This document shows positions 2,350 to 22,435 of a DNA stretch of 22,435 nt, piece by piece. Origin of the DNA: a virus; IMG/VR virus record IMGVR_UViG_3300034073_004904, positions 1-22,435 of that record. The stretch is one strand, 5' to 3'. The number at the start of each line of letters is the position of its first letter. The stretch's first letter is position 1. The notes below the pieces were generated by a model, which was given only the letters and a program-made list of their open reading frames with translations, did no database searches and was not told the origin of the DNA. Made by a program: the position numbers and the translations under genes.

Positions 2350-2358
2350 ATTGTATCA
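2350..2358 (-). promoter_or_regulatory. Putative extended -10 promoter TGATACAAT
   Basis: On the minus strand, TGATACAAT overlaps the stop codon of the holin-like gene. It would drive the 2279-to-355 group and start transcription just upstream of the GC-rich hairpin. No good -35 is seen, which is usual for extended -10 promoters. It matches the TGRTAnnAT pattern found at several other sites in this window. Confidence 0.4.
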
Positions 2359-2562
2359 CTTATTATCAAGATGCCATGTTATATGACTATCTATTTTTTC
2401 ATCTAAATCTTTAATATCTTCTTTCAAGTCTTCAAGTTTTTCTGTGACTGTGTTGTGGTCTTTTCTATTTTCTTTTCTTAAAGAGTTAATCAAAGCAACC
2501 ATAACTCCACCAACCGTTGTTATTAGAGCAACAGCTATTGCTGACAGCGCCGCCCCATCCAT
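2356..2562 (-). CDS. Holin-like small membrane protein (TM plus coiled coil)
   Basis: 68 aa. Residues about 5-27 (ALSAIAVALITTVGGVMVALI) form one transmembrane helix. A charged coiled coil follows (about 33-60), and the tail contains SHITWHLDNK. One N-terminal membrane helix plus a coiled coil ending in an H-x3-H type tail resembles actinophage holin-like proteins (DUF2746 type, by memory of pattern only). It probably sits in the cytoplasmic membrane and may help release the endolysin, although the endolysin gene is 13 kb away on the other strand. The start overlaps the upstream stop as TAATG, which implies coupled translation. Confidence 0.7.
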   Translation of the reverse strand: MDGAALSAIAVALITTVGGVMVALINSLRKENRKDHNTVTEKLEDLKEDIKDLDEKIDSHITWHLDNK

Positions 2563-8665: not shown

Positions 8666-8673
8666 TGTACTAT
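8666..8673 (+). promoter_or_regulatory. Putative -10 TGTACTAT, leaderless start of the virion block
   Basis: TG directly followed by TACTAT, then 7 nt to ATG 8681. No SD lies upstream of that ATG, so the mRNA may be leaderless. It directly follows the terminator, as expected for the promoter of the next unit. Confidence 0.4.
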
Positions 8674-8680
8674 ATTCTTT

Positions 8681-9025
8681 ATGGATACAGGTTTTATCAA
8701 AAATAAAGGACTTCATGTTCCAAAAGAAATATTTGGTGTATGTATATGGATAATGCCTGATGGTAAACCTTTGTCTGATGGGGATGGGGTTTTGTGTGCG
8801 GAGGGACTTTTGGATGATAAAAATATCGAAAGGCAGGTCGCAGAAGCTGCCAAATATTGGACAGGTAGTGATGAAGGATATGCCACATGGGTTGGTGGAG
8901 CAAGAAAAGTTACGGGTTCAGAGAGAGATGATCAAGCTGAACGCCTTGCTAATGGTTTAAATCCGGATCCTTATCAGGATATTGTGGAAGCTGCTGCTCT
9001 TAAAGAGCTTCGTAGGAGATCATAA
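8681..9025 (+). CDS. Small protein upstream of portal, unknown function
   Basis: 114 aa. The N-terminus (MDTGFIKNKGLHVPKEIFG) is followed by IWIMPDGKPLSDGDG, a helix with EAAKYWTGSDEGYATWVGG, and a charged C-terminus with DDQAERLANGLNPDPYQDI. I do not recognise a named family. Its stop overlaps the portal start as TAATG, so the two are translationally coupled. Position suggests a head- or packaging-associated role, which is inference only. ATG 8681 is the most plausible start because it follows the -10 box. Confidence 0.75.
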   Translation: MDTGFIKNKGLHVPKEIFGVCIWIMPDGKPLSDGDGVLCAEGLLDDKNIERQVAEAAKYWTGSDEGYATWVGGARKVTGSERDDQAERLANGLNPDPYQDIVEAAALKELRRRS

Positions 9026-10635
9026 TGGCTGGCGAGATGACTTATATCAAAGACTCAGAAGATGAATTTTTTATTGATGATGTAGATTATTTTCAAGTTC
9101 TTAGAAAAACTGAAAATTCAGATCCTTTTAAGAAAGTTAGATATGAATCGCTTTCATCTAAGATGAAAAGAAAAGCTACAAAGTTACAAAAAAAATATGA
9201 AGGTATTGAGGGTACTGGGACTAAATACATAGACCCAGAAGAGCTTGACGGGTATTCTTTATATGATGTCGTGACTCCGCCATACGATCTTTTGAATCTA
9301 GCTGATTTATTTGACTCTAGTGCTATTCATAATGCAGCAATAACAGCTCGCGTTATGAATACTGTTGGTCTTGGTTATTCTTTCTCTGAAACTTTTAAAT
9401 CAAAAAGGCGTCTTGAAAAAGCTCAAGAAAATCCTGAAAGGCTTAGTCGTGTAAGAAAAGCTATTCAGGATATTAGGCAAGATCTTGAAAATAAATTTGA
9501 AATTTTTAATGAAGAAGAAACTTTTATTGAAACTATTGTAAAAGTATGGACTGATTATTTAACAACTGGTAACGGGTATCTAGAAATTGGTAGAACAAAT
9601 TCAGGACAGATTGGTTACATAGGTCACGTTCCGTCAGTTTTGATGAGAGTTCGCCGTCATCGCGATGGTTTTGTGCAGATTGCTAAAAGCAATAAAATAC
9701 AAGCAGTATTTTTTAGAAATTTTCAAGATTTTGAAACTCAAGATCCAATTAATTCTGATCCAAGCCCAAATGAAATTATTCATTTTAAAGCTTATTCTCC
9801 TAATAATACGTATTATGGAATACCATCTGCTGTTTCAGCAGCTGCTGCTATTGTTGGTGATAAATTCGCAAAAGAATATAATATCGACTATTTTGAAAAT
9901 AAAGCCATTCCTAGATATGCAATTATTGTAAAAGGTGCTAAGTTAAGTAATAAATCTAAGCAAGAGCTTGTAAATTATTTTCGTCAAGAAGTAAAAGGAA
10001 GAAATCATGGAACACTTATTGTTCCACTCCCATCTTCTCTTGGTGGGGATACTGATATTAAGTTTGAAAAACTTGAAGCCGGAATTCAAGATGCTTCTTT
10101 TGATAAATATAGAAAAGCTAATAGAGACGAAATTTTAGTCGCAAACAGAGTTCCCGCACCAAAAGTTGGTGTTTACGACAATGCAAACCTTGCCGTTTCA
10201 AGAGACGCTGACAAAACATTTAAAACTCAAGTTATATCACCAGATCAGTCTATTATCGAAAAAAAATTAAACAGGATTATTTCTGAATTCACAGATCTTG
10301 TCGAATTTAGATTTGATCGGATTGATCTTATTGACGAAGATATCCAATCAAGAATCCATGATAGATATCTTAGGACTGAAGTGATAACACCTAATGAAGT
10401 TCGTAACGAGCTTGGGATGCCAGAAAGAGTCGATGGAGATATGCCTCTCCCATTCCCAACAAAGCTTAAAAAAGAACAAAATCCAGGTCCTGGCGCTCCA
10501 TCAGGAAATAGTAATAATCAAAGCGCCTTCCCGCCTAATGCAAGGGTTGACACCCCTGCTGGTGCTTCTGACCCAAGAGTTTCTGGGGATCAAGCTGAAA
10601 GAGGTCAAAATCAAGATACAGGAGGAAATCAATGA
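9025..10635 (+). CDS. Phage portal protein
   Basis: 536 aa, normal for a portal. Portals form the dodecameric ring at the capsid vertex through which DNA is packaged and ejected. The pattern fits the HK97/PBSX-like portal family: an N-terminal helical clip region, a stem/wing core with EIIHFKAYSPNNTYYGIPS (about residues 250-268), the segment GDKFAKEYNIDYFENKAIP, and NRVPAPKVGVYDN followed by NLAVSRDADKTF. The latter is typical near the channel region. The last 55 residues are Pro/Asn/Gly-rich and disordered. AGGAG at 9014-9018 serves the ATG. No terminase or capsid gene is adjacent; small proteins and fibres follow instead. Confidence 0.93.
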   Translation: MAGEMTYIKDSEDEFFIDDVDYFQVLRKTENSDPFKKVRYESLSSKMKRKATKLQKKYEGIEGTGTKYIDPEELDGYSLYDVVTPPYDLLNLADLFDSSAIHNAAITARVMNTVGLGYSFSETFKSKRRLEKAQENPERLSRVRKAIQDIRQDLENKFEIFNEEETFIETIVKVWTDYLTTGNGYLEIGRTNSGQIGYIGHVPSVLMRVRRHRDGFVQIAKSNKIQAVFFRNFQDFETQDPINSDPSPNEIIHFKAYSPNNTYYGIPSAVSAAAAIVGDKFAKEYNIDYFENKAIPRYAIIVKGAKLSNKSKQELVNYFRQEVKGRNHGTLIVPLPSSLGGDTDIKFEKLEAGIQDASFDKYRKANRDEILVANRVPAPKVGVYDNANLAVSRDADKTFKTQVISPDQSIIEKKLNRIISEFTDLVEFRFDRIDLIDEDIQSRIHDRYLRTEVITPNEVRNELGMPERVDGDMPLPFPTKLKKEQNPGPGAPSGNSNNQSAFPPNARVDTPAGASDPRVSGDQAERGQNQDTGGNQ

Positions 10636-10892
10636 TTGATGGACATATCGTGTTTTCAAACACAGCTTTAACAACTGGTGATGGAGAAACTACAATCTCT
10701 CATCACACTTATGCAATATATATGTTATGTGGATCTAATAATGATGTTGAAGTGAAATTAAATGGAAAACATTCAGTTTTGCTACCGGCAAGAAATGATC
10801 ATGGTCACGCATACGTTATTGTGCCTGGTGATTACAACACTATTGAAGTTATAACTGATAGCTCAACTATTAGTGTATTCGCAATAGGGTAA
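10632..10892 (+). CDS. Small beta-rich virion-type protein
   Basis: 86 aa. It begins MIDGHIVFSNTALTTGDGE and has a compact beta-sandwich-like pattern, including VEVKLNGKHSVLLPA and VPGDYNTIEVITDSSTISVF. I believe similar short proteins sit beside structural genes in other phages, but I cannot name the family. It overlaps the portal stop by 4 nt (ATGA) with GGAGG just upstream, so it is coupled to the portal gene. Confidence 0.75.
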   Translation: MIDGHIVFSNTALTTGDGETTISHHTYAIYMLCGSNNDVEVKLNGKHSVLLPARNDHGHAYVIVPGDYNTIEVITDSSTISVFAIG

Positions 10893-10921
10893 TTTTTGAT
10901 AGAATATATTGGAGGGGAGTG

Positions 10922-11254
10922 ATGGCTGCTGAAAGAAATATAACAATATATCAAGGAGATACATATCTTCATGATGTAACCATTAATGACTCTTCAAATT
11001 CCGCAATAGATATTACCAATCGGACCTATTCAGCTCAGATTAGACCATTTAGAGGCTCGTCAACACTTATCGCTTCTTTTACTACTGAGATAGTTTCTGC
11101 CGAAAATGGCCAGATGAGATTTTCTTTAACTCCTGAGCAAACATCAAATATTGAAATTGGTACATATATATATGATTTACAACAGATTGACTCTGGAATT
11201 GTTCTTACATTGATGGCAGGAACCGCAACTGTAGTCGGGCAGGTATCTGTATGA
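10922..11254 (+). CDS. BppU-like N-terminal domain protein, probable baseplate or fibre-associated
   Basis: 110 aa from ATG 10922. A GTG at 10919 is in frame, but SD GGAGG (10911-10915) is better spaced for the ATG. The pattern ITIYQGDTYLHDVTI ... YSAQIRP ... FTTEIVSAENGQMRFSLTPEQTSNI ... YIYDLQQ resembles the Ig-like N-terminal domain of phage baseplate upper proteins (BppU type). Such a domain would dock a fibre or adhesin to the tail. It is followed by a 4-nt overlap to the next gene. Confidence 0.7.
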   Translation: MAAERNITIYQGDTYLHDVTINDSSNSAIDITNRTYSAQIRPFRGSSTLIASFTTEIVSAENGQMRFSLTPEQTSNIEIGTYIYDLQQIDSGIVLTLMAGTATVVGQVSV

Positions 11255-11529
11255 GCGCTCAAGTTACTACTATAACGGTCTCCCCTTCAGATTCTTCAGT
11301 TATTACTTTAGTGGAAAATCAAAGTACAGTTATTTCAGTTACTAATACAGATACTACTGTATTGCAAGCAGCCCCTGCTATAATAGCTTTAGGTCAAACT
11401 TTAATTTTATCTAATGATATTCCATTAGAGCTTGCAGAAACAGGTTCTGCTGGTATATCTAATACGGTTTCAAGATCTGATCATGTGCATCCATCAACTG
11501 GTATGCTTTTAAATGGAGGTAATTTTTAA
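11251..11529 (+). CDS. Short fibre-like protein with SRSDHVHP motif
   Basis: 92 aa. The first 60 residues are Ser/Thr/Val-rich beta repeats. The end, SNTVSRSDHVHPSTGMLLNGGNF, carries the S-R-S-D-H-V-H-P motif common in phage tail fibres. It finishes in GGNF, much as the next protein finishes in GGTF. It may be a short fibre segment or connector. It overlaps the upstream gene by 4 nt, and its own end contains the SD (GGAGG, about 11516-11520) for the next gene. Confidence 0.75.
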   Translation: MSAQVTTITVSPSDSSVITLVENQSTVISVTNTDTTVLQAAPAIIALGQTLILSNDIPLELAETGSAGISNTVSRSDHVHPSTGMLLNGGNF

Positions 11530-13170
11530 ATGTCTAATACAATCAGAATTAAAAGAAGAGCTACCGGCTTAGCTGGTGCTCCATCAACACTCAAGAATGC
11601 AGAGCTTGCATTTAATGAGGTTGATAATGTTTTATATTACGGTAGCGGTGCCGATGTAAATGGTGACGCTAATACTGTAATCTCAATTGGCGGTACTGGT
11701 GCTTTTGTGGGTCTAGCTGGGACTCAGACTATAACTGGTGCAAAAACATTCTCTGGTACTGTTGCCCTAGGATCAAGCGCCACAGCCACGACTAAAAGCG
11801 CCGGGGATAATTCGACATCTGTTGCAACAACTGCATATGTTGATAATGCCGTAACAGGTTTAAGCTCGTCTCTTGTTGTTGCTGGCGATACTGCCAATAC
11901 AACAGTTGTTGTTGGAACAGACACTTTAACGATCTCTGGCGGCACAGGTTTGAGTTCTGCTGCAACTACTGACACTATCACTATCAATCTAGATAACACA
12001 GCAGTCTCTGCTGGATCTTATGGTAACGCAGTTAGCGTTGGAACATTTACTGTTGATGCTCAGGGTCGTCTTACATCTGCAAGCAATACTGCTATCGCCA
12101 TTCCTTCGACAGCGGTTACTGATTTCACAGAGGCCTCTCAAGACGTTACTGGTGCTCAGATTGTTACTAATGGTAGCCATACAGGTATTAGCGCAACTTA
12201 TGATGATGGGACTGATGGCGGCATCAATCTGTCTCTTACAGACACAACTGTTACTGCTGCCTCTTATGGTACTGCTTCGTCTGTGGCTAGCTTCACAGTG
12301 GACGCTAAAGGTCGTCTGACTGCAGCTTCAAACACCACAATTTCTATCACGTCTTCTCAGGTGAGTGATCTGTCTACCAGCGCTGTTACGTCTATCGTTG
12401 GGACTACTAATGAAGTAACGGTAAACACATCTACTGGATCTGTTCAAATTGGTTTGCCTGACAGCGTTACAATTAGCAATAACTTAACAGTAAGTGGTGA
12501 TTTGACGGTAAATGGTACTACCACAACTATAAACTCTACAACTATATCTGTTGATGATAAAAATATAGAACTTGGTTCTGTTGCTTCACCAACAGACACT
12601 ACTGCAAATGGTGGCGGTATCACTTTGAAAGGCGCAACTGATAAAACTCTTAACTGGGTCAGCTCAACTGGAGCTTGGACATCTTCTGAGCATTTCAATA
12701 TTGCAACTGGTAAAGAGTATCATATTAATGGCGCTTCTGTTCTTAACGCTACAACTCTTGGATCTTCTGTTGTTGCTTCATCACTAACTAGTGTCGGAAC
12801 AATTGGAACCGGTATATGGCAGGGCACCGCTGTTGCTGTAGCTTATGGTGGTACTGGTGCTACGGACGCTGCAACAGCTAGAACCAACCTTGGTCTTGCT
12901 ATTGGCACAAATGTTCAGGCTTACGATGCTGAGCTTGCAGCTATTGCTGGACTATCTTCGGCTGCAGACCGTTTGCCATATTTCACGGGGTCTGGCACGG
13001 CCGCTCTTGCAACTTTCACAAGCTTCGGTAGATCACTTGTTGATGACACAAGTGCTTCAACAGCAAGAACAACTTTGGGTCTTGGAACAATTGCAACTCA
13101 AAACTCTAACAATGTGACCATTACTGGTGGTAGCATTGATGGTATCACCTTTGACGGTGGAACTTTCTGA
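11530..13170 (+). CDS. Tail fibre protein, repetitive
   Basis: 546 aa. The N-terminal segment NTIRIKRRATGLAG...NAELAFNEVDNVLYYGS (about 3-38) is related to the start of the next gene and is likely a virion anchor. The shaft has trimeric-fibre features: GTQTITGAKTFSG, an internal repeat of about 36 residues (157-192 and 239-274), VSGDLTVNGTTTTINSTT, and two copies of TARTxLGL near the end. It finishes in GGSIDGITFDGGTF. Such proteins bind the host surface. It starts directly after the preceding stop. No chaperone or reverse transcriptase is nearby. Confidence 0.88.
   Translation: MSNTIRIKRRATGLAGAPSTLKNAELAFNEVDNVLYYGSGADVNGDANTVISIGGTGAFVGLAGTQTITGAKTFSGTVALGSSATATTKSAGDNSTSVATTAYVDNAVTGLSSSLVVAGDTANTTVVVGTDTLTISGGTGLSSAATTDTITINLDNTAVSAGSYGNAVSVGTFTVDAQGRLTSASNTAIAIPSTAVTDFTEASQDVTGAQIVTNGSHTGISATYDDGTDGGINLSLTDTTVTAASYGTASSVASFTVDAKGRLTAASNTTISITSSQVSDLSTSAVTSIVGTTNEVTVNTSTGSVQIGLPDSVTISNNLTVSGDLTVNGTTTTINSTTISVDDKNIELGSVASPTDTTANGGGITLKGATDKTLNWVSSTGAWTSSEHFNIATGKEYHINGASVLNATTLGSSVVASSLTSVGTIGTGIWQGTAVAVAYGGTGATDAATARTNLGLAIGTNVQAYDAELAAIAGLSSAADRLPYFTGSGTAALATFTSFGRSLVDDTSASTARTTLGLGTIATQNSNNVTITGGSIDGITFDGGTF
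11998..12352 (+). repeat. Two imperfect repeats inside the tail fibre gene
   Basis: About 108 nt at 11998-12105 and 12244-12352 encode the same unit: T-x-V-x-A-x-SYGxAxSV, FTVDAxGRLTxASNT and I-x-I. This is a typical fibre shaft repeat that could recombine. Confidence 0.7.
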
Positions 13171-13182
13171 TAGGAGTTTTTA

Positions 13183-14145
13183 GTGGCTAACACTATAAAA
13201 ATTAAAAGCTCTGGGGTGACATCTAATACACCAGGGGCTTTGGAGCATGGGGAGCTTGCCATCAATTATGCTGATGGCAAGCTCTACTATAAAAATAGTA
13301 GCAATACTATTGTTGAGTTTGGCGGAGGCGGTGGTGTAACAGACCACGGCGCCTTGACTGGTCTCGCAGACGATGATCATACACAATACCTGTTGGCTGA
13401 TGGGACTAGAACCGCTACGTCTCTTACTGTTTCTGGTAATCTCACAGTAGATACTAATATGTTGTTTGTTGATTCCACAAACAACGAAGTAGGAATTGGA
13501 ACCATATCGCCTACCACAAAGTTAGATATTCTCGGGCTGACTACTGAAGATCCTATTCTTTCTGTTCGTCATAACGGCGGCTCTGCTGGTCATGCCGGTA
13601 TAGCCATGACGAGCACGGGATCAGGGGGCAGGACATGGACCCTCATTTCTGCCGATGCTGGGTATACACATGGTGATGGCTTCCATGTTCTAAACAGTAC
13701 CTCTGGTCACATGGTGAGCATAAAGGCTCTTGGAACCAATCTCGGTTCAATTGGTATCGGCACAACTTCGCCTTCAGCCGCCCTTGATGTCGTAGGTGAT
13801 GCTGAGATCAATGGAAGCATGACTGTAACCGGCAACATCGTTTACACCCAGACAATGGACACCAAGACCGCCTCTTACACAGTCGTTTCTTCAGATGTTG
13901 GAAAGCTGTTGTACATGAATAATGGCGCAAATAATCATACGGTGACTGTAGACTCATCGACAGGGTTTTCAGTCGGCCAGAGAGTAGACATACTCAGAAC
14001 AGGAACTGGAAGTGTCACGGTCGTTCAAGGGTCTGGAGCAACCGTATACTACACCCCGGCGCTCACTCTTCGGGCACAGAATTCCGCTGCGACTCTTGTC
14101 TGCACCGGCTCGAATCAGTATCATTTGATAGGAGACTTGGGCTGA
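13183..14145 (+). CDS. Second tail fibre / adhesin with shared N-terminal anchor
   Basis: 320 aa, GTG start with SD GGAG 8-9 nt upstream. The first 40 residues (NTIKIKSSGV...EHGELAINYADGKLYYKNS) parallel the start of the previous fibre, so both may attach to the same virion site. Next come HGALTGLADDDHTQYLLADG, a common fibre motif, and two GIGTxSPxxxLDI/V units followed by VTGNI. The C-terminal domain starts near DTKTASYTVVSSDVGKLLYM and is beta-rich. Codon use becomes clearly more GC-rich from about 13320 on, unlike the fibre gene before it. This suggests a swapped receptor-binding module. Confidence 0.85.
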   Translation: MANTIKIKSSGVTSNTPGALEHGELAINYADGKLYYKNSSNTIVEFGGGGGVTDHGALTGLADDDHTQYLLADGTRTATSLTVSGNLTVDTNMLFVDSTNNEVGIGTISPTTKLDILGLTTEDPILSVRHNGGSAGHAGIAMTSTGSGGRTWTLISADAGYTHGDGFHVLNSTSGHMVSIKALGTNLGSIGIGTTSPSAALDVVGDAEINGSMTVTGNIVYTQTMDTKTASYTVVSSDVGKLLYMNNGANNHTVTVDSSTGFSVGQRVDILRTGTGSVTVVQGSGATVYYTPALTLRAQNSAATLVCTGSNQYHLIGDLG

Positions 14146-15050
14146 TGTTGGGCAATCTCGGGATCATCGCGTCGGCTGTCGTACCCATCCCCGATCTTGT
14201 TGTCGGTTACCTTGTTGTAGCAGGCGGAGGTGGCGCTGGCGGTGGGCGCATTAGCTTTGGCGGCTCCGGCGGTGGTGGTGGTGGTTATCGTATTTCGTTT
14301 GCTGGTGAGCCTTCCGGCGGTGGGGCTTCTGCAGAGACCCCACTGACACTTGCTACGGGAACGAACTACACGGTTACGGTTGGTGCTGGAGGTGCGGGGT
14401 CTACCGGTGGATCAGCCGGGTCTAATGGCACGAGTGGCTCCGATAGCGTCTTCCATACGATCACTTCGACGGGGGGCGGTTTTGGTGTCGCCCCTAATGC
14501 CAACAACGTGCCAGGCAATGGTGGTTCTGGTGGGGGCGCTGGTGCTAATGACACGACCAGTCCTGGGTCTGGGACTACTGGACAAGGTTATGCTGGCGGT
14601 ACTACTTCCGGTACGACCCAGTCGGCTGCTGGTGGTGGTGGTTCTGCCAGTGTTGGCGGTCCTGCGGGTGGAACCAACGACCGCGGTGGCGACGGTGGCG
14701 ACGAGCTAACTGTTCTGGGGTTCTACTTCTCTCATGGCGGCGGAGGTGCTGCTGACAACACGATCACTACTGGTGTCGGTGGCAGTGGAGGTAACTCTGG
14801 TGGTGATGGTGGTGTCCATAATGCTGCTGGAGGTTCGGGTTCAACTAACCGTGGTGGCGGTGGTGGTGGTGGTGGTTCCGGTGGCGCTACTGGAGGCAAT
14901 GGAGGTAGCGGTGGTGTTGCCCTGCTGTTCCCTGACGAGTATTCGTATTCAACATCTGGTTTGACGTACACGGATTATGGTGGTACGTTTGAAGCAGGTA
15001 AGACCCTTCTGTGGATCACTGCAGGGACGGGAACCATTAGTTGGTCATAA
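14145..15050 (+). CDS. Glycine-rich tail adhesin
   Basis: 301 aa and strongly Gly-rich from about residue 25 to 265, with short GGGG and GGSGG runs. It has a YLVVAGGGGAGGG entry segment and a beta-type C-terminal end (LTYTDYGGTFEAGKTLLWIT). This composition is typical of phage adhesin tips or fibre ends built as polyglycine sheets. It overlaps the previous stop (TGATG), so the two are coupled and probably assemble together. GC content is high, partly but not only because of Gly codons. Repetitive Gly codons make it prone to indels. Confidence 0.82.
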   Translation: MLGNLGIIASAVVPIPDLVVGYLVVAGGGGAGGGRISFGGSGGGGGGYRISFAGEPSGGGASAETPLTLATGTNYTVTVGAGGAGSTGGSAGSNGTSGSDSVFHTITSTGGGFGVAPNANNVPGNGGSGGGAGANDTTSPGSGTTGQGYAGGTTSGTTQSAAGGGGSASVGGPAGGTNDRGGDGGDELTVLGFYFSHGGGGAADNTITTGVGGSGGNSGGDGGVHNAAGGSGSTNRGGGGGGGGSGGATGGNGGSGGVALLFPDEYSYSTSGLTYTDYGGTFEAGKTLLWITAGTGTISWS

Positions 15051-15073
15051 TATTAGTAAAGGAGATATAAGTT

Positions 15074-15427
15074 ATGGCACATTACGCATTTTTAAATGAA
15101 AATAATATAGTAACCCAAGTCATTGTCGGTAATGACGAAGGTGCCACCGACATGGAACAGTTCTATAGTAACTTCGTAGGCTTACCATGTAAACGGACTT
15201 CTTACAACACAAGTGGAGGTGTCCATTTGTTGGGGGGTGTTCCATTTAGGAAAAATTATGCAGGTATAGGGTTTACCTATGACGGAACACGGGATGCTTT
15301 CATCCCTCCTCAGCCATATCCGTCTTGGGTTTTGAACGAAGAAACTTGTTTATGGGAAGCTCCTGAGCCTATGCCTGATGATGGGTTAGACTATGAATGG
15401 GACGAACAGGCCCTTCAGTGGGTGTAA
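15074..15427 (+). CDS. Conserved small phage protein (MAHYAFLxENN family)
   Basis: 117 aa. The N-terminus MAHYAFLNENNIVTQVIVG, then CKRTSYNTSGGVH, FRKNYAGIGFTYD and IPPQPYPSWVLNEETCLWEA, matches a small protein I know from many cyanophage and other marine or freshwater phage genomes, near fibre or structural genes. The function is unknown; it is probably a virion or fibre accessory. The start has SD AAAGGAG at good distance. It lies between the adhesin and endolysin genes. Confidence 0.85.
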   Translation: MAHYAFLNENNIVTQVIVGNDEGATDMEQFYSNFVGLPCKRTSYNTSGGVHLLGGVPFRKNYAGIGFTYDGTRDAFIPPQPYPSWVLNEETCLWEAPEPMPDDGLDYEWDEQALQWV

Positions 15428-15449
15428 ATACAAGAAAGGTTAATATATT

Positions 15450-16310
15450 ATGAGCGAAATACTTTATCCAACAAGTTATAAAACACGGTTAGTTACCATT
15501 GATGAACTTTTCAGTGAGCATCATGTTGATAAAATGCATCCAGAATTTGCTAGAAGGCTCCGTTGCTGGCTTGTGGATCAGGGCGGAAATGTTGGAATTG
15601 GCGGATCTTGGCGTGATACTGGAGCACAGCCAGATAAGCCAGGTTTTGCTCCGGAGGGGCAGTCATTCCATCAGTACCAGAAGTTTGCTTCAGGTTTAAT
15701 CAAGTTCTCTGCGGTTGATCTTGTTGTACGGGACCCTGGTAAAGTTCACCGTTCACCAAAGTGGTCTGAAGTACCTGTCCAAGGGTCAGAGTGGGCTAAA
15801 AAGTATGGTGTCCACGCAAATGTTGGTGCCCCAGGTCAACCTGGAGCAGAAAGCTGGCACATGCAATGTGTCGAAATCGACGGGTGGGCTAGTTGGGATA
15901 GAGCAGGTCATCCTGACCCTGTGTCCGGCTATCCTATACCAGAAAAACCAAACTATCCATCTAACGGAATATTGATACCAAAAGGAGAAGAATTAGAAAT
16001 GATAGTAAATCAACCACATAGAGCGTACGACTCTAGAAGCGGCGCAGCGCATAAAGCTGGGGAAACACGCAAGGTAAAGGTAGCGTCTGCTAAAGCTGCG
16101 TTTGTCAACATTGTTGCGGTAAGCCCGGAAGACTCCGGCTATCTTACACTTTGGGGTGACGGCGCACGCCCAAACTCATCTCACCTTAATTTCACTAAAG
16201 GTGTTACCATTGCTAACGGTGTTTGGGTGCCTGTTATGAGTGATGGGAGTATTAACATCTACACCCATAAAGGATGCCACATCGTTGTTGATGTGCTGGC
16301 AACCGCGTAA
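15450..16310 (+). CDS. Endolysin: M15-type peptidase plus actinobacterial surface domain
   Basis: 286 aa. Residues 1-165 fit an M15 (VanY/LAS-type) metallopeptidase that cuts peptidoglycan stem peptides. Likely zinc ligands are H74 (QSFHQ), D90 (FSAVD) and H137, with catalytic E134, in AESWHMQ. After a linker rich in Pro, residues about 186-286 match the domain found in many actinobacterial surface proteins: RAYDSR (191-196), AGETRKVKV, FVNIVAVSPEDSGYLTLWG, HLNFTKGVTIANGVWVPV, IVVDVLATA. In those proteins the last strand usually ends DVxGYF. Here it probably binds the wall. No signal peptide is present, so a holin is needed. A perfect hairpin follows the stop. Confidence 0.88.
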   Translation: MSEILYPTSYKTRLVTIDELFSEHHVDKMHPEFARRLRCWLVDQGGNVGIGGSWRDTGAQPDKPGFAPEGQSFHQYQKFASGLIKFSAVDLVVRDPGKVHRSPKWSEVPVQGSEWAKKYGVHANVGAPGQPGAESWHMQCVEIDGWASWDRAGHPDPVSGYPIPEKPNYPSNGILIPKGEELEMIVNQPHRAYDSRSGAAHKAGETRKVKVASAKAAFVNIVAVSPEDSGYLTLWGDGARPNSSHLNFTKGVTIANGVWVPVMSDGSINIYTHKGCHIVVDVLATA

Positions 16311-16320
16311 ATAAAAAGTC

Positions 16321-16366
16321 TAACAAAGAATGCAGCTAATGCATTGTTTAGCTGCATTCTTTGTTA
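16321..16366 (+). terminator. Perfect 19-bp hairpin after the endolysin gene
   Basis: The arms TAACAAAGAATGCAGCTAA (16321-16339) and its exact complement (16348-16366) enclose an 8-nt loop. It begins 11 nt after the stop. A run of T is weak on both sides, so it may be a terminator, an RNase III processing site or an mRNA-stabilising 3' end. Confidence 0.7.
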
Positions 16367-16382
16367 ATTGTATTAATATAAT

Positions 16383-16388
16383 TATTAT
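16383..16388 (+). promoter_or_regulatory. Putative -10 TATTAT, leaderless start of 43-aa gene
   Basis: TATTATAAAATATG (16383-16396) differs at one base from TATTATTAAATATG at 5267-5280. No SD is seen before ATG 16394. The transcription start would fall at or near the ATG. Confidence 0.4.
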
Positions 16389-16393
16389 AAAAT

Positions 16394-16525
16394 ATGAGAT
16401 CTATTTTTAATATAAAAATTTTATCATTAACATTAATATCTTCTGCAGTTTTTTTTTGGGTTTCAGCGACTATAGTAGCTGTCGTAATGATGGGAAAAAT
16501 GCTATATACAGAACCTATAGATTAG
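16394..16525 (+). CDS. 43-aa single-pass membrane protein, possible holin or lysis regulator
   Basis: The ORF encodes MRSIFNIKILSLTLISSAVF and then a continuing hydrophobic stretch (FWVSATIVAVVMMG) to residue 34, with a short tail MLYTEPID. A basic N-terminus followed by 25 or more hydrophobic residues predicts a membrane helix or an uncleaved signal. It lies just after the endolysin and the hairpin, a common place for holins and similar small lysis proteins. The start is supported only by the -10-like box, not by an SD. Confidence 0.5.
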   Translation: MRSIFNIKILSLTLISSAVFFWVSATIVAVVMMGKMLYTEPID

Positions 16526-16529
16526 AATT

Positions 16530-16880
16530 TTATCGGCTTACATGGTTACACTTGCCATTCACTTCTACAATTTTGCCGTCAGAAAACTTGCAATGATACT
16601 CAATATAATACCCTCCCCCCATGGGAGGGGTAACCACCGTGTGGAATCTTAGAATTCCATGGTAGTTTGTGTCTTGATTTACCCCACCTGAAGTTAACAA
16701 TAGTCTTCCGTGAGAAGATATTAAATATCTATCGAGTATACAGTCGAAATCTTTGGTTTGAAACTCTGTTTCATATCCAAAATGTCTGGTATTTCCCGAA
16801 TTAAATATTAGAGTTAAATTTTCTGTAACTTCTATATTTGGAAGTCTATAGTTTGTATAAATACTGTCATATAAGCCCAT
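16530..16880 (-). CDS. Conserved small phage protein (MGLYDSI ... FQTKDFD)
   Basis: 116 aa. It begins MGLYDSIYTNYRLPN and contains TEFQTKDFDCILDRYLI followed by HGRLLL, a layout I recognise from widespread phage hypothetical proteins that begin MG(M/L)(F/Y)D. It is beta-rich, with a C-terminal YYIEYHCKFSDGKIVEVNGK. The function is unknown. SD AAGGGAG precedes the ATG. It is transcribed alone on the minus strand, convergent with the 43-aa gene, from a TGATATAAT promoter about 100 nt upstream. Confidence 0.8.
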   Translation of the reverse strand: MGLYDSIYTNYRLPNIEVTENLTLIFNSGNTRHFGYETEFQTKDFDCILDRYLISSHGRLLLTSGGVNQDTNYHGILRFHTVVTPPMGGGYYIEYHCKFSDGKIVEVNGKCNHVSR

Positions 16881-16980
16881 TTTTTCTCCCTTATTAAAAC
16901 TCTTTCATTGTAGTACCATTTTTTAATCATATGAGCTAGTTTTGATATTCACTATCAGACTTTTCATTCTAATAATTACT

Positions 16981-16989
16981 ATTATATCA
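16981..16989 (-). promoter_or_regulatory. Extended -10 promoter TGATATAAT
   Basis: On the minus strand, a perfect extended -10 (TG-A-TATAAT) lies about 100 nt upstream of the 116-aa gene. No -35 is seen. The overlapping plus-strand sequence TTACTATTATAT could serve the metallopeptidase gene. TGATATTCACTATCA, about 16943-16957, is a small inverted repeat that could be an operator. Confidence 0.5.
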
Positions 16990-17013
16990 TGTTAAACATT
17001 TTTGAGGTGACAT

Positions 17014-18588
17014 ATGCCTTTTAACTTTCGTGGTAGACCTATTATAAATCTTGGTCGAAATAGGATGGCTCCCACTCCTTCTGGTGGAGCTCCTTGGCCT
17101 CCTCCCTGGCTTCCTCCTCACCCTAAGTCGCCTAGAACTTTGCCTATAGATGATTTTATTCAAATATCTAAGGCTGCGCGGTCTGAAATGGGTGAAGAAG
17201 TTGTAACTGATTTAATAAGTTTTATGGATAAAGCTGGATATACTCAAACTACTGGATCTTTTAGAATAACTGAAGGTGGAATTGAAATGGCTTCTGTTCC
17301 ACGTCAATCTATAAACGGTCAGGTTAATATTTATATTGGTTCAATAGGTGATTCTATTATAGAGGAAAATTTAAAAAAAAATGACGGTACATACTATGCA
17401 GGTGTGCAAAAATCAGCGGGGCGTACCAATGGAATTTCAGGGACTAGTGGAATCGTACGTGCCAAAGGCACAATTGCCGATACAGTCAATCTAGCCCAAA
17501 AAAATACTGGCAGAGTGGGTGGAGTCGTCTCTCACGAAATAACTCACGCTATTGATAAGACTGCAGGTTATGCTTCAGGATATGACTTTGCTGGAAGTGG
17601 AATTAATCCACGCATGGAGAAAGGTTTACAAAAAGTTCGTGAACTAATAACTAATAAAGAGTTATCTCCAGATGAGGCTTTTAGACAAAGTGGGATAATG
17701 GAAGCTATGGAAGATTGGGCAAGAGGTTACGGGTCTAGTGAGGCTTTAGCTGACACAGGTAAAGTTTCTTCGCTAAAAAGAGTGTCAGAAGCAGATCCTG
17801 AGCTAGCAAGAAGGATAGGGCTTGATGATTCTGGTGAGTTTAGATTACCACTAAAGATGGACCTTGATGATTCTGGTAAGCTCGTAACAACAGAGCAAAC
17901 TACAAAAAGAACTTTTGGACTAGATATTCTAGATAAATTTATTGGAAATCAATTATACGACAAAGAAACAAGCCTTGGTAGCGGATACTCAGCTGGGGAA
18001 ATGGAATCAACATGGGAAAGATTTCCAGGTTACGAACACACGTACCGTAATGAGCTCAAGAAATTAGGAGTTAGTGACGAAGTATTAGAAGAGTCGGCTC
18101 AAAGGCAAAAAGCCGTAGCTGCAGCCAACTATGCGGCGAGGGTGGGTGGAATTGGGCCAGAAGAAGAATTATTATTTGAAATAGCGGCTGAAAAACGTGG
18201 AAAAAGTCGTATTACAAAGTCTTATCCGAGAAATTTTCTAGAAGAACTCTATGATGAAGAATATAAACGTCAAAGAGTTAAGGGAAGATTTAACATAGAA
18301 ATTGTTGATGATGTCGTTGATGATGTTTCTGAAATAGTTTCCCAAGCCAAAGTTAAGCCAGATTTTTGGTTAGCTGGCTTAACTCTTAAGCCAAACCAAA
18401 TGCCTGTAACAGGTCACGTTTCTCAAGCTTTAAACTCTTCACTAGATGATGTTGGTGAATCTGTTGCACGTCGTATTCCCCCTCAACCGGTACTAGAAGT
18501 TGGCTCAGGTAAAGCCACTCGTAAAACACTTCAAAGGATAGTTCAATCAGGTATGACAGCTAAACGTATTGCTAAGAATATTTTTTAA
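17014..18588 (+). CDS. Putative zinc metallopeptidase (HExxH), phage-encoded
   Basis: 524 aa. After a Pro-rich N-terminus (APWPPPWLPPHPKSP, 26-40), the segment VVSHEITHAID (171-181) gives an HExxH zinc motif, H174-E175-x2-H178. SSEALAD (241-247) offers E243 as a gluzincin-type third ligand, a layout typical of phage and toxin metallopeptidases. The rest is helical, charged and not recognised, ending in a basic helix (SGMTAKRIAKNIF). No signal peptide or transmembrane segment is seen. It may be a virion-carried protease acting on host or virion proteins. SD GAGGTG lies close to the ATG. The gene is convergent with the 382-aa gene. Confidence 0.75.
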   Translation: MPFNFRGRPIINLGRNRMAPTPSGGAPWPPPWLPPHPKSPRTLPIDDFIQISKAARSEMGEEVVTDLISFMDKAGYTQTTGSFRITEGGIEMASVPRQSINGQVNIYIGSIGDSIIEENLKKNDGTYYAGVQKSAGRTNGISGTSGIVRAKGTIADTVNLAQKNTGRVGGVVSHEITHAIDKTAGYASGYDFAGSGINPRMEKGLQKVRELITNKELSPDEAFRQSGIMEAMEDWARGYGSSEALADTGKVSSLKRVSEADPELARRIGLDDSGEFRLPLKMDLDDSGKLVTTEQTTKRTFGLDILDKFIGNQLYDKETSLGSGYSAGEMESTWERFPGYEHTYRNELKKLGVSDEVLEESAQRQKAVAAANYAARVGGIGPEEELLFEIAAEKRGKSRITKSYPRNFLEELYDEEYKRQRVKGRFNIEIVDDVVDDVSEIVSQAKVKPDFWLAGLTLKPNQMPVTGHVSQALNSSLDDVGESVARRIPPQPVLEVGSGKATRKTLQRIVQSGMTAKRIAKNIF

Positions 18589-18619
18589 TAATCTGAGGTA
18601 CTAGTTTAAAAATTTTTTA

Positions 18620-19768
18620 TTAACCATACCTGCGCTGTTCAGCTATTCTTCTGTCCATTTCTATTCTTTTTTGAATTTCTAACTTTTCTACATCTCTGTT
18701 TCTAAACTTGTTAACACCATATGCACCAAGACCAACAGCAGCAGCAGCTGCAGTTAATCTTAGATTTTTAGCCCCTTTAAGCCCTGAGGCTACAGCTGAA
18801 GATGCATTTGCAGCGTTTTGCATTCCTCGTCTTGTTGTAGATGAAGAAGTCCCCCTTGAAGGCATGCCCCCACTTGCAGTAGTCTGCGTACTTTGTGTAC
18901 CTGTGTTAACAGTAGCTCTAGGCACCCTAGCTGGTTCTGGCGTCTCTAGTGGCTCACCAAAAGATTCTACAGGCGTTCCTACATTAACGCCACCTTGTTG
19001 ACGGGGTTTTGTTGGAACTGGTTCTGGAGCTGTCGGTTGTGCTGGAGGATTCCCGCTAGTGGTACTGCCAGATGAAGGCGGAGAGGAAACCGCAGTAGGA
19101 CCTCCAGCAGGAGAAGCAGTCGCTGCAGGCAAGGCTCCAACTGTTGGGGATCCAGAAAGAATATCACCTACAACATTTAAGTTGCGTACATCATCACCAT
19201 ATTGAAATTGAGCGCCCAGCGTTCCTCTATTAATCTGTTTTTGAACATTTGCAGCCCTATTCATATCCGCAACATTATCGGGTGTGTCATAAACAGCAGC
19301 ATCCATAAAGGCAGCTCCACCTTTATTGGCATTCCAGCCAGCATCATCTCCAGCTACATCAGGGAGTTTAAATCTAGCAGTTTTCCCGTCTTTTGCCCTA
19401 AAATATATAGATCCCTTTTTTTCTCTAATTATTCTTTCTTGTTCGTCTATAGGGAGATCGTTAAATTTTGTGGTTGTAGTTGGGTCAGTCTGAAATATAT
19501 GCTCGATGTTACCTGATTTTATTTCATCGAGTAACTCTTGTGGCATGTTTGCTAGAGCTCTTTCGTCAAGTCCTTTTACTAAATCAAAAATCTCCTGCTC
19601 GTTCATATCTGCAGTTTCAAGTAGATTAAATATCTGAGTACCAGGATGGATTTTATCGCTACTAACTTCAAATATTGAAAGGCCTACTTGTGGGACTCTA
19701 GATGGACTAACTGTTGTTGCCTGCAGTTGAAATTTGTTGTTTAGCGGAATGGTTTTACGCTCTGTCAT
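18620..19768 (-). CDS. Modular protein with Pro/Ser/Thr-rich linker and C-terminal hydrophobic helix
   Basis: 382 aa. The N-terminal 200 residues look globular, with FDLVKGLDERALANMPQELL and IYFRAKDGKTARFKLPDVAG. Residues about 206-315 are a low-complexity Pro/Ser/Thr/Gly linker. A helix LRLTAAAAAVGLGAYGVNKF (336-355) could enter a membrane, and the C-terminus is basic and charged (EKLEIQKRIEMDRRIAEQRR). No family is recognised. It could be an internal virion or ejected protein, or a surface-linked one; both are guesses. AGGA precedes the ATG, with a TGATAAGAT promoter 16 nt upstream. It is convergent with the putative metallopeptidase gene. Confidence 0.75.
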   Translation of the reverse strand: MTERKTIPLNNKFQLQATTVSPSRVPQVGLSIFEVSSDKIHPGTQIFNLLETADMNEQEIFDLVKGLDERALANMPQELLDEIKSGNIEHIFQTDPTTTTKFNDLPIDEQERIIREKKGSIYFRAKDGKTARFKLPDVAGDDAGWNANKGGAAFMDAAVYDTPDNVADMNRAANVQKQINRGTLGAQFQYGDDVRNLNVVGDILSGSPTVGALPAATASPAGGPTAVSSPPSSGSTTSGNPPAQPTAPEPVPTKPRQQGGVNVGTPVESFGEPLETPEPARVPRATVNTGTQSTQTTASGGMPSRGTSSSTTRRGMQNAANASSAVASGLKGAKNLRLTAAAAAVGLGAYGVNKFRNRDVEKLEIQKRIEMDRRIAEQRRYG

Positions 19769-19784
19769 ATTCTTGTCCTAATCT

Positions 19785-19793
19785 ATCTTATCA
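19785..19793 (-). promoter_or_regulatory. Extended -10 promoter TGATAAGAT
   Basis: It lies 16 nt upstream of ATG 19768 on the minus strand. The leader would be about 10 nt and still hold AGGA. It matches the TGRTAnnAT pattern of this genome. Confidence 0.45.
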
Positions 19794-19860
19794 TATAGAA
19801 CATATAGTAATAGCTAAGACCAATTAACATAAACCAAGTAATCTAAGGCTCTATTGTAAA

Positions 19861-19891
19861 TTTCTTTTGTATATACAAAATACAAAAGAAA
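19861..19891 (-). terminator. AT-rich 12-bp hairpin after the right-hand operon
   Basis: TTTCTTTTGTAT and ATACAAAAGAAA pair perfectly around a 7-nt loop. It lies 12 nt beyond the stop of the 77-aa gene and before the promoter of the 382-aa gene. It has weak GC and no clean U tract, so terminator function is uncertain. Confidence 0.4.
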
Positions 19892-19902
19892 AATAAAAAC
19901 TT

Positions 19903-20136
19903 TTAGTTATTTAATGGTCGTATTTGAGAATCAAATACAGTAAATTCTTCAATCAATTCTTCTTGTGTATAACCAGAGTAATCTGGATGAGTTGTTAAAG
20001 CTTGAACAAAAAGTTTTATTAAACGATCTGATTTTTCCAAAGCAGCGACGGCATCATATATAGATGCATAAAAATCGCCTTCTGTAACTTCAAGATCAAT
20101 ATTTCTTAAGCGAGATATAATATTTTGATTTATCAT
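19903..20136 (-). CDS. Small helical protein, unknown function
   Basis: 77 aa. It begins MINQNIISRLRNIDLEVTEG and continues as amphipathic helices (YDAVAALEKSDRLIKLFVQA), ending in a short acidic segment (YTQEELIEEFTVFD). No family is recognised. AGGT upstream of the ATG may serve as SD. It is the last gene of the right-hand minus-strand operon. Confidence 0.7.
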   Translation of the reverse strand: MINQNIISRLRNIDLEVTEGDFYASIYDAVAALEKSDRLIKLFVQALTTHPDYSGYTQEELIEEFTVFDSQIRPLNN

Positions 20137-20140
20137 GATT

Positions 20141-20335
20141 TTACCTATTTATAATCCAATGTTTTTGTTGAAGAGGAAAGCCATACATCATTTCTTCAAC
20201 TGCTTCTAATTCTCCACATTTAGAACATATTTCAGTATTGTTATCCGTTCGACTTAAAGCGCCAGGGTAGGCGCCGGGTGTTTCATTGTTAGGAACTAAA
20301 TTTTGACATCTTGGACAAACAGGATTTTCTATCAT
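20141..20335 (-). CDS. Small zinc-ribbon phage protein (PNNETPGAYPGALSRTD)
   Basis: 64 aa from ATG 20335, which overlaps the upstream stop as TAATG and has GGAG 9 nt upstream. An in-frame ATG at 20350 would add five residues. Two CxxC pairs (CPRC and CSKC) frame VPNNETPGAYPGALSRTDN, a pattern I know from many actinophage zinc-ribbon proteins. The function is unknown. This supports the actinobacterial host. Confidence 0.85.
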   Translation of the reverse strand: MIENPVCPRCQNLVPNNETPGAYPGALSRTDNNTEICSKCGELEAVEEMMYGFPLQQKHWIINR

Positions 20336-20550
20336 TATAATATTCTCCATTCGTCACAATCAGGTAATAAACCTAAACTTGAACCATTGTCCCAGTCTAT
20401 GTGAATAGTTCGATAATCGTCTATAAAATTAACAACTCCTTGATCGCCAGGAGTTAAATTTGTGTATTCATCATTAATATAAAGTAATTGAATTCTGTCT
20501 TGAATTTTTTCGCCTGAAGGACCAATATTTTTTTCAAAAGAATTTATCAT
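20335..20550 (-). CDS. DUF4314 protein
   Basis: 71 aa from ATG 20550; a GTG at 20580 would add ten residues, overlap the upstream gene and lacks an SD. The whole protein fits DUF4314: LLYINDEYTNLTPGDQGVV, then FIDDYRTIHIDWDNGSSLGL and LPDCDEW. This is a small beta-barrel-like domain frequent in phages and mobile elements. Its role is unknown. It is coupled to the following zinc-ribbon gene by a TAATG overlap. Confidence 0.85.
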   Translation of the reverse strand: MINSFEKNIGPSGEKIQDRIQLLYINDEYTNLTPGDQGVVNFIDDYRTIHIDWDNGSSLGLLPDCDEWRIL

Positions 20551-20563
20551 GATAAGTTTTATA

Positions 20564-20887
20564 TTATTGCCAGATGGCACATTTGTTACAAGTATTTATA
20601 GATCGATACTCGTAATAGGCTATGACGCAATTAAATATTTCTTTAGAAAGATCAGGATTAGTGTCATAAATTTCTGATTGAAAATTAGCGTAATATCTTA
20701 ATTCTCCTGAAACAGAATCAATTTGATTAATACTATAGTTAGGTGAAAGATGAGAAAGAAGTTCATCTAACTTTAAAATAATATTTTTCCAACCAGGATT
20801 TTGATAAAGAACAGAGGAAGAATGTTCAAAAGAAGGTGATGTAATAGGATCAATTATCCTATTTAGAATCAAATCATATTCTTTCAT
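20564..20887 (-). CDS. Truncated paralogue of the QVKxKFGGLRFY-family phage protein
   Basis: 107 aa. It parallels the protein at 355-744: PGWKNIILKLDELLSHLSPN (31-50), then INQIDSVSGELRYYA (53-67), NPDLSKEIF (77-85) and a final C100-x2-C103 (CNKC). The other copy continues with a second Cys/His pair after its CETC, but this one stops four residues after CNKC. It therefore keeps only half of the metal site, and the conserved KFGGLRFY has changed to SVSGELRYY. It may be diverged and functional or on the way to decay; the frame is open and intact. SD-like GAAAG is weak. Confidence 0.75.
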   Translation of the reverse strand: MKEYDLILNRIIDPITSPSFEHSSSVLYQNPGWKNIILKLDELLSHLSPNYSINQIDSVSGELRYYANFQSEIYDTNPDLSKEIFNCVIAYYEYRSINTCNKCAIWQ

Positions 20888-20898
20888 TATAAAACTTT

Positions 20899-21000
20899 CT
20901 ATATAGCATCAGTGTCAACAATTTTACCTATTAAAGGAAACAAAAAAAGAATAAATATAAAAAAACAAATTAAAAAAAAAAACAAAAATTTAAATATCAT
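20899..21000 (-). CDS. 33-aa hydrophobic membrane peptide
   Basis: The ORF encodes MIFKFLFFFLICFFIFILFL and a short tail FPLIGKIVDTDAI. Almost all of residues 4-24 are Phe, Leu or Ile, which predicts one membrane helix. It overlaps the end of the 54-aa gene by 11 nt. The coding DNA is a T-rich tract, so a chance ORF cannot be excluded. Confidence 0.4.
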   Translation of the reverse strand: MIFKFLFFFLICFFIFILFLFPLIGKIVDTDAI

Positions 21001-21154
21001 TTTTATCTTTTAATTGAAATTTTTTAACTTTTTCTATATCTTCAGAACGAGAACTCCAAAAATATGGTTTAGGATCACCACATTTGCGGCAGGGGATAAA
21101 TCTTAAATGGCGCATACATACAACAGCGGAAGAAATGTGATTATCAAATATCAT
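20990..21154 (-). CDS. 54-aa small protein with CxxC
   Basis: The ORF encodes MIFDNHISSAVVCMRHLRF, then IPCRKCGDPKPYFWSSRS and a charged helix (EDIEKVKKFQLKDKNDI). The CRKCG pair suggests half a zinc knuckle. Its ATG overlaps the upstream stop as ATGA, the coupling style used through this region, which supports real translation. Confidence 0.6.
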   Translation of the reverse strand: MIFDNHISSAVVCMRHLRFIPCRKCGDPKPYFWSSRSEDIEKVKKFQLKDKNDI

Positions 21155-21447
21155 TGATAATATCCTGAATTATATTTATCAAGAAAAATTATACTTTGAT
21201 TATACCAAGTACAATCATCACAAGTCTGATTACATTTATTACAAAACTCATTGCCCTCAGGGGGCGGGCCGATGAAGACTCCCTGTTCTGCATCGTTGAG
21301 TGCAATCGGAAGTAGTTCAGCGACGAGTCCACGTAGTCGTTTGATCTCATCTTTGGCGTCGTTCAACAGGACACAATGATCACACAGGCACACATAGTCA
21401 CCCGAAAAGATGAAGTTGGTAATTCGTTGCACGATGTCGTCGTTCAT
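21151..21447 (-). CDS. Small Cys-rich coiled-coil protein spanning a GC shift
   Basis: 98 aa from ATG 21447. The frame is open further upstream, but this ATG overlaps the previous stop (ATGA) and has GGAGG just before it. It has CLCDHC near residues 19-24, a DEIKRLRGLVAELL coiled coil, FIGPPPEG, and then CNKCNQTCDDC. The function is unknown. The coding DNA is GC-rich for the first two-thirds and AT-rich for the last third (from about 21255 down to 21151), as if two sources had been joined inside the gene. Confidence 0.75.
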   Translation of the reverse strand: MNDDIVQRITNFIFSGDYVCLCDHCVLLNDAKDEIKRLRGLVAELLPIALNDAEQGVFIGPPPEGNEFCNKCNQTCDDCTWYNQSIIFLDKYNSGYYQ

Positions 21448-21728
21448 CGGTCCTCCATGAGCGGGCATTGGTTTGGGCAGTCGGTGTGGTGACAGTCGGC
21501 TTTGCCGGGTCGTGTGATGTGCAGGTCGCAGTCGTCCCGATGGCAGCGTTCCCACCAGTTGCCGTGATCGTCAGTCAGTAATCCCGGTGGGTGTTGCGGT
21601 GGGTGGAATCGACGCCACAAATTGCGGTCAGCCACCCACCGCAACCAGATGATTTTGGCGATAAAATAACCCCCGCAGAAGCCGATCCATAATCTGACCA
21701 GCGTTCCGAGAGTAACTGGGTCATCCAC
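21444..21728 (-). CDS. Small membrane protein with Cys/His-rich tail
   Basis: 94 aa, GTG start with GGAGG 7 nt upstream. Residues about 7-28 (LGTLVRLWIGFCGGYFIAKI) form one membrane helix. The C-terminal half has WWERCHRDDCDLHI and CHHTDCPNQC, a probable metal site. No named family is recognised. It overlaps the upstream gene by 8 nt (GTGGATGA) and the next by 4 nt (ATGA). Codon use is GC-rich. Confidence 0.75.
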   Translation of the reverse strand: MDDPVTLGTLVRLWIGFCGGYFIAKIIWLRWVADRNLWRRFHPPQHPPGLLTDDHGNWWERCHRDDCDLHITRPGKADCHHTDCPNQCPLMEDR

Positions 21729-22023
21729 GTCGAGCCTCCTCGTTGGTTTCCATCATCTCTCCGTAACAGGTAATGAGATCAAGCCGTAGCCGCCTGACAA
21801 GTTTCATTAGCCGTCCAATTTCGTCCTCTTGTGACGGAAACACATGAGGTGTGTCGTCGTTCTGGCAGTTGAGCGGTGGATGTCCCATCACCCACCCGCA
21901 ACGTGTGCACATCTCCTCGCTATATCCCTTGTGCTGATGTCGCCGGGCGAGAACATCCAGTGGTGTCATCTGCATCTCATTCGATTCGTCAGGGATGTTA
22001 TCCACAATGCACCTGCTTTCCAT
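21721..22023 (-). CDS. Small protein with CxxC and DEIxRL coiled coil
   Basis: 100 aa from ATG 22023, or 84 aa if it begins at the ATG at 21975, which would avoid a 26-nt overlap with the upstream gene. It has CTRCGWVMGHPPLNC (a Cys-His metal site), then DEIGRLMKLVRRLRLDLITC and YGEMMETNEEA. That last part parallels DEIERL ... LRLDLITCHGQLMEAEKE in the left-edge gene. The DNA encoding it shares TAATGAGATCAAGCC exactly (plus-strand sense). The function is unknown. Codon use is GC-rich. Confidence 0.75.
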   Translation of the reverse strand: MESRCIVDNIPDESNEMQMTPLDVLARRHQHKGYSEEMCTRCGWVMGHPPLNCQNDDTPHVFPSQEDEIGRLMKLVRRLRLDLITCYGEMMETNEEARRG

Positions 22024-22174
22024 CTACGTAAACTTGGATGCTTCTGCCGGTAGGTGACACCGAAACTTCTACGTGGCGTTCGCACTCGCTTTTAATGTCG
22101 ATCCATACGATGTTGTAGATGCCTCGCCGTTCATCCAATTTGACTGTTCCGTGCGTTACTTCCACGTCATCCAC
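21998..22174 (-). CDS. 58-aa beta-rich protein
   Basis: The ORF starts at GTG 22174 with GGGAGG 8 nt upstream. It encodes MDDVEVTHGTVKLDERRGIY, then IVWIDIKSECERHVEVSVS and SIQVYVDGKQVHCG, an alternating pattern that suggests a small beta barrel. It overlaps the stop of the edge-cut gene by 8 nt (GTGGATGA). No family is recognised. Codon use is GC-rich like its neighbours. Confidence 0.65.
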   Translation of the reverse strand: MDDVEVTHGTVKLDERRGIYNIVWIDIKSECERHVEVSVSPTGRSIQVYVDGKQVHCG

Positions 22175-22435
22175 GGTGATCCTCCCATTCTTTGATTCGT
22201 GCTCGGATCAGAGCTTCAGCAATCGCATACTCGGCGGCGTGTTCCGGTGCTCGACGTTGAACTTCGTCCGCCAACTCATCGATGTGATGATTCTCCCAGC
22301 ATCCGACGGAAAGTCGATGACCTGCCTCTTCTCGCCAAACGGTGATCGTCTGGTTTTCGCTGCCGATCGGGCTGATCGTGAGGACGTGACGGGAAGAAAC
22401 GATGAGAGCCTTGCCGGAAACCCGAGCGTCGCCGT
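22167..22435 (-). CDS. Hexapeptide-repeat phage protein, C-terminal part, cut by right edge
   Basis: 88 residues are open from the window edge to a TGA. It starts inside a hexapeptide repeat (GDARVSGKALIV), followed by SSRHVLTISPIGSENQTITV, LSVGCWENHHIDELADEV and a helix ending IKEWEDHRG. The segment ARVSGxA ... HVLT...PIGSE ... VGCW recurs, by memory, at the C-terminus of phage proteins with hexapeptide repeats; the function is unknown. It is the C-terminal counterpart of the gene at 1-266, on the same strand, and could be the same gene if the ends join. Confidence 0.75.
   Translation of the reverse strand, partial: GDARVSGKALIVSSRHVLTISPIGSENQTITVWREEAGHRLSVGCWENHHIDELADEVQRRAPEHAAEYAIAEALIRARIKEWEDHRG

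Follow-up and report, generated by a model that had tools for sequence, protein, structure and literature searches.

The closest described relative of the lysin analyzed here, judged by the fold of its catalytic half, is Ply500 (PDB 2vo9), an endolysin of a Listeria phage that belongs to the M15 peptidases and acts as an L-Ala-D-Glu peptidase. Two other kinds of lysin share parts of its architecture, namely those with the Pfam domain VanY (PF02557) and those in which an M15 domain of the same type is joined to PG_binding_1 (PF01471), a small helical domain. For the C-terminal half, the described counterparts are triple repeats at the C-terminus of secreted proteins from Actinomycetota and Chloroflexota and, in fold, the tip of the Bdellovibrio fibre Bd2133 (PDB 8ok3).

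We analyzed a virus record of 22,435 bases (IMG/VR IMGVR_UViG_3300034073_004904), referred to as the window throughout, which contains a lysin gene with the features listed in Table 1. The lysin has the fold and the His/Asp/His plus Glu pattern of Ply500 and, by our reading, its role as an endolysin, but the two proteins are only 19% identical, the His-Asp spacing is longer in the window lysin, and the C-terminal domains differ. With the PG_binding_1 lysins it shares the catalytic domain and the C-terminal position of the binding domain, whereas the binding domains themselves are unrelated in sequence, that of the window lysin being a predicted beta-sandwich.

We propose, with a probability of roughly 80%, that the product of this gene is an endolysin with two domains, made by a tailed phage whose host is most likely actinobacterial. 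The N-terminal M15 zinc peptidase would cut a peptide bond of the peptidoglycan stem. The C-terminal domain, named DTR here because D-[ST]-R is conserved in it, would dock the enzyme on a presumed component of the host wall and keep it there, a job that would equal that of PG_binding_1 in sister lysins. What is new is an M15 endolysin carrying an uncatalogued domain with a predicted wall-targeting role. This module is common to at least four kinds of wall-cutting enzyme, and none of the curated libraries we searched contains it. Most endolysins from uncultured aquatic actinophages lack annotation, and the domain could serve as a handle for spotting lysins and hosts in metagenomes.

Table 1. 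Features of the lysin gene and of a possible lysis partner, with positions in the window
Feature	Position	Strand	Basis
Probable lysin ribosome-binding site, AGAAAGG, 10 bases 5' of ATG	15433..15439	+	Sequence
Lysin gene, 286 aa, ATG start: M15 peptidase, linker and C-terminal DTR domain	15450..16310	+	ORF reading, model
M15-type zinc peptidase domain, residues 1-165	15450..15944	+	Model; Ply500 2vo9 Z 10.1; hhalign 98.7%
H74 (SFH), predicted zinc ligand	15669..15671	+	Invariant in homologue alignment; role inferred from M15 motif
D90 (AVD), predicted zinc ligand	15717..15719	+	Invariant in homologue alignment; role inferred
E134-S-W-H137, predicted catalytic Glu and third zinc ligand	15849..15860	+	E, W and H invariant; role inferred
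Linker, predicted disordered	15945..15995	+	Residues 167-180 lowest, pLDDT < 50
C-terminal beta-sandwich domain, residues 183-286, predicted wall-binding module	15996..16307	+	Profiles, model
Inverted repeat (hairpin) directly 3' of the lysin stop, possible terminator	16321..16366	.	Self-match, sequence
68-aa single-TM protein, phrog_32850	2356..2562	-	Match 3e-10, alignment

Predicted structure of the lysin

Close homologues of the lysin were found in five viral contigs, with best segments 54-79% identical. A first structural model, based on five sequences, was poor (pLDDT 61) and was excluded from the fold searches. The final AlphaFold2 model was built with 49 aligned sequences and reached a mean pLDDT of 91.4; it consists of two rigid domains joined by a loose linker, and residues 167-180 are the only stretch with a pLDDT below 50. 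Neither the whole lysin nor its C-terminal domain alone matched Pfam, PHROGs or NCBIfam at E 1, and in PDB sequences, phmmer and profiles picked up only chance matches, for example to T-cell receptor chains. A tblastn search of 50,697 phage records gave nothing convincing, with one match (E 0.7) to a tail protein of a Pseudoalteromonas phage.

Fold and conserved residues of the N-terminal half

An alignment of 12 homologues of the catalytic half revealed that the pattern SxH...D...ExWH is kept throughout: H74, D90, E134 and H137 are invariant and the Ser of SxH is nearly so. Other conserved positions are R36, R55, KPGFA, FH74, WH137 and DG. The distance between H74 and D90 is 16, compared with the usual M15 spacing of 7, due to an inserted loop. 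Since the single window protein matched none of the curated M15 models at E 1, including PF02557, its link to M15 runs through profile-profile comparison and structure. The best structural match of residues 1-159 is the catalytic domain of Ply500 (2vo9; Z 10.1, rmsd 3.2 Å over 128 residues), followed by VanY/LdcB and VanXYc (Z 6.9). Lysins like that of locus L020 match Pfam VanY at 5e-9, and the profile of the window's catalytic domain aligned to an L020-type lysin with an hhalign probability of 98.7%, with His, Asp and ExWH in register. These VanY lysins also share the C-terminal domain of the window lysin, although the window protein itself lacks the PF02557 match. By fold and conserved residues, then, residues 1-165 are an M15 peptidase with predicted activity, in agreement with an earlier sequence-only reading, which had described this half as M15-like.

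The C-terminal domain: sequence and fold

The same reading had placed a domain at residues 186-286 and characterized it by the motifs DSR, AGET, GYLTLWG, LNFxxGxTxAN and VVDV. The structural model gives almost the same bounds (183-286), and all of the motifs are present, in the form YDSRS, AGET, GYLTLWG, LNFTKGVTIAN and VVDV. Chance does not explain them: profiles built only from Actinomycetota or only from Chloroflexota copies, which had first been retrieved by a profile including the window and are to that extent circular, scored the window lysin at 81.4 bits (E 2.8e-23 for 10,000 sequences) and 63.3 bits, respectively, while 440 shuffled viral domains gave zero matches to cellular-copy profiles. 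No ORF besides the lysin matched the Actinomycetota-only profile in the six frames of the window. At equal row numbers, the window domain fits Actinomycetota profiles better (83 ± 3.5 bits) than the Chloroflexota profile (67 bits), so that the profile search suggested in the sequence-only reading returned a strong relation with the better fit on the actinobacterial side.

That reading had also seen the pattern of a surface repeat. The homology holds by profile, but no curated NCBIfam surface-repeat model matches, and a scan of the relatives' copies against NCBIfam at 0.01 found no family, including the curated models of actinobacterial surface-anchored repeats. Our search of the open-access literature for a description of the domain found none, which is a weak negative.

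Structure prediction, likewise suggested earlier, yielded a beta-sandwich of about eight strands. Its closest solved fold is the Bd2133 fibre tip (8ok3/8ond; Z 9.6-9.7, rmsd 2.5-2.6 Å; 99 residues aligned for 8ok3), a trimer on a long fibre that is 11% identical to the C-terminal domain; PDB sequence and profile searches detected no sequence relation between the two. Passages of the paper on this tip call it a previously uncharacterised trimeric sandwich and name no ligand (PMC10769870). As this tip is no proven wall binder, the fold match weighs against a wall-binding role. The structural match to CBM35 (Z about 6.5), like those to C1q/TNF and cupins, lies at the level that common beta-sandwiches are expected to reach; CBM35 shows no sequence match. 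Foldseek against viral models mostly returned generic beta-sandwich matches to unnamed proteins.

Exchange with PG_binding_1 in viral lysins

We searched viral contigs with each half of the lysin and obtained 25 loci with the C-terminal domain and 50 with the M15 domain. Based on Pfam matches of representatives, with the remaining loci assigned by close similarity, the DTR domain stands C-terminal of the window's M15 type, follows a divergent VanY-type M15 domain (L020, L022-L024, L026, L030-L032) or Amidase_2 (L012, L013, L015-L019, L028, L029), and in one locus a GH25 muramidase (L014). PHROGs names the Amidase_2 and GH25 proteins that bear it endolysins. Conversely, a C-terminal PG_binding_1 is present in most of the scanned M15 loci. 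The M15 domain is fused to GH25 in two of them, the DTR domain occurs in a minority, and a few show no recognised partner. We call the DTR domain a wall-binding module chiefly because it and PG_binding_1 replace each other in one and the same position. It is most likely the cell-wall-binding module of these endolysins, and the reciprocal swapping supports the wall- or glycan-binding role that had been suggested from the motifs.

At somewhat less than even odds, the DTR domain may represent an unrecognised class of endolysin wall-binding domain that is specific to phages of actinobacteria and recognizes a glycan common to Actinomycetota and some Chloroflexota. The cellular triple repeats would then hold secreted proteins on the surface via the same ligand. 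The module also offers a testable idea about the binding partner of the repeats that many secreted proteins of actinobacteria and Chloroflexota carry.

Genomic context of the lysin

In relatives, the genes directly downstream of the lysin encode small membrane proteins, among them single-TM proteins of phrog_32850, and weak matches to Phage_r1t_holin and phrog_443 lie beside the lysin of L012. Because membrane proteins follow the lysins of relatives, we favour an endolysin over a tail-borne lysin. The window lysin itself comes after tail-fibre genes with no clear holin adjoining, its phrog_32850 partner being non-adjacent, and in the window as well as in L001 and L005 the lysin gene is located inside the structural block. 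This location raises the alternative of a virion-associated lysin used at entry, with the C-terminal domain as a receptor-type adhesin of the particle. Besides the tail-fibre and Gly-rich genes that the lysin follows, such an enzyme would fit the protease-like and major capsid-like genes that come after the lysin in L001 and L005, the fibre tip as nearest solved fold, and a tail-fibre-like protein of L005 (13035-13697, phrog_892) with a weak match to the DTR profile (3e-7) in its C-terminal part. However, the lysin is a free-standing protein of 286 aa without a tail-attachment region, homologues of its DTR domain reside on the Amidase_2 and GH25 endolysins, and the DTR lysins of relatives adjoin holin-like membrane proteins. 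We therefore regard a tail lysin as unlikely and retain the endolysin. For the phrog_892 protein of L005, the weak match hints at a possible second use of the DTR domain, on virions.

DTR copies in bacteria and the probable host

The cellular distribution was sampled evenly within Actinomycetota and Chloroflexota. At E 1e-5 or better, copies of the domain were found in 18 of 296 Actinomycetota genomes, in 10 of 151 Chloroflexota genomes and, for the class Actinomycetes, in 19 of 148. Several genomes are rich in the domain, with 15 to about 30 copies or more, and the copies are commonly arranged as tandem triplets. These phylum samples replaced a scan of genome contigs with the viral alignment that used strict short patterns and gave two loci only: a Streptomyces protein, in which an Amidase_6/CHAP region follows three tandem copies, and a domain-bearing protein from Chloroflexi. 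All 11 plasmid matches came from Streptomyces or Curtobacterium, the query itself being actinobacterial. Several contigs of the Chloroflexota genome G415 (e.g., L125) encode proteins of ~400 aa that each end in one DTR domain rather than three, one of them with a twin-arginine-like signal.

Viral, Actinomycetota and Chloroflexota copies have the invariant R..D.R, P..S..N, N, G and D in common. By this sequence comparison, the C-terminal domain is homologous to repeats of secreted proteins from both phyla, from which it differs in being single-copy, in lacking the GGVP-type loop and in its link to a lytic enzyme. The actinobacterial repeat of the sequence-only reading is thus confirmed as a homologue, but an exclusively actinobacterial domain is ruled out by the Chloroflexota copies.

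A better clue to the host is WhiB, which has been treated as an actinophage marker (PMC10202952; PMC6802176). It is encoded in 9 of the 15 domain-bearing contigs tested first and in 2 of 5 more, giving 11/20, compared with 0/20 viral contigs drawn by random 16-mer (Fisher p 1.5e-4), a difference that is indicative, as the contigs vary in length without correction and include near-duplicates. Among contigs with the M15 domain but without the DTR domain, 5 of 21 (18 + 3 contigs) encode WhiB. The carriers include G001 and also G005, a 70 kb contig that shares several kilobases of identical sequence with the window; the 22,435-base window, only a fragment, contains no WhiB. Since WhiB is present in these relatives, the host of the window's phage is probably actinobacterial. 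For the window taken by itself, the earlier description of the domain as the best host clue is fair; the sister contigs offer a better one in WhiB. A host from the Chloroflexota or another non-actinobacterial group would agree with the equal frequency of the domain in the sampled Chloroflexota and Actinomycetota, yet it appears very unlikely given WhiB in the related contigs and the better fit of Actinomycetota profiles to the window domain.

Origin of the domain

In a tree of DTR copies, calculated from a short alignment of 121 columns in which most forks are weakly supported, the 22 viral copies require 3 label changes, compared with a mean of 18.6 after shuffling. The viral copies, derived from four enzyme types, cluster apart from most of the sampled cellular copies, and the window copy groups with those of L001 and L005. 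Because the viral copies group together, the recent capture from a host that had been suggested earlier is not favoured; the data favour instead a DTR lineage circulating among phages over a fresh capture from the present host. A recently captured surface or sorting domain without wall binding of its own would suit the cellular copies, mostly triple repeats on secreted proteins, but is highly improbable in view of the largely separate viral group, its lack of the GGVP-type loop and the place of PG_binding_1 that the domain takes in sister lysins.

Other features of the window

Window positions 7433-16310 correspond to positions 1-8810 of L005 (70 kb contig IMGVR_UViG_3300035670_000162) with ~100% identity until about 13.6 kb, where identity suddenly drops to 60-70% across the tail-fibre end, the Gly-rich ORF and the lysin. 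This drop marks either a point of recombination or a chimeric assembly. Past the lysin (16311-22435), the protease-like and major capsid-like genes found at this place in L001 and L005 are missing from the window, and its gene content there appears unrelated to theirs. A 43-aa single-TM ORF without family match (16394-16525) lies just past the hairpin. A 524-aa ORF (17014-18588) with the zinc-peptidase-like motif HEITHAIDK matched Pfam M13 and M90 only at E > 0.1 and has no homologue in 15 related contigs. The ORFs at 355-744 (-) and 20564-20887 (-) are similar in sequence (SPNY, LR-YA) and paralogue-like; the former gave no match to PHROGs. Upstream of the lysin, the window encodes ThyX (FAD-dependent thymidylate synthase; 4418-5110), a family-4-type glycosyltransferase (5502-6512) and an adenosylcobalamin-dependent ribonucleotide reductase (6585-8513), as well as tRNA-Lys(ttt) at 269-341 (-) and tRNA-Asn(gtt) at 8524-8598 (+).
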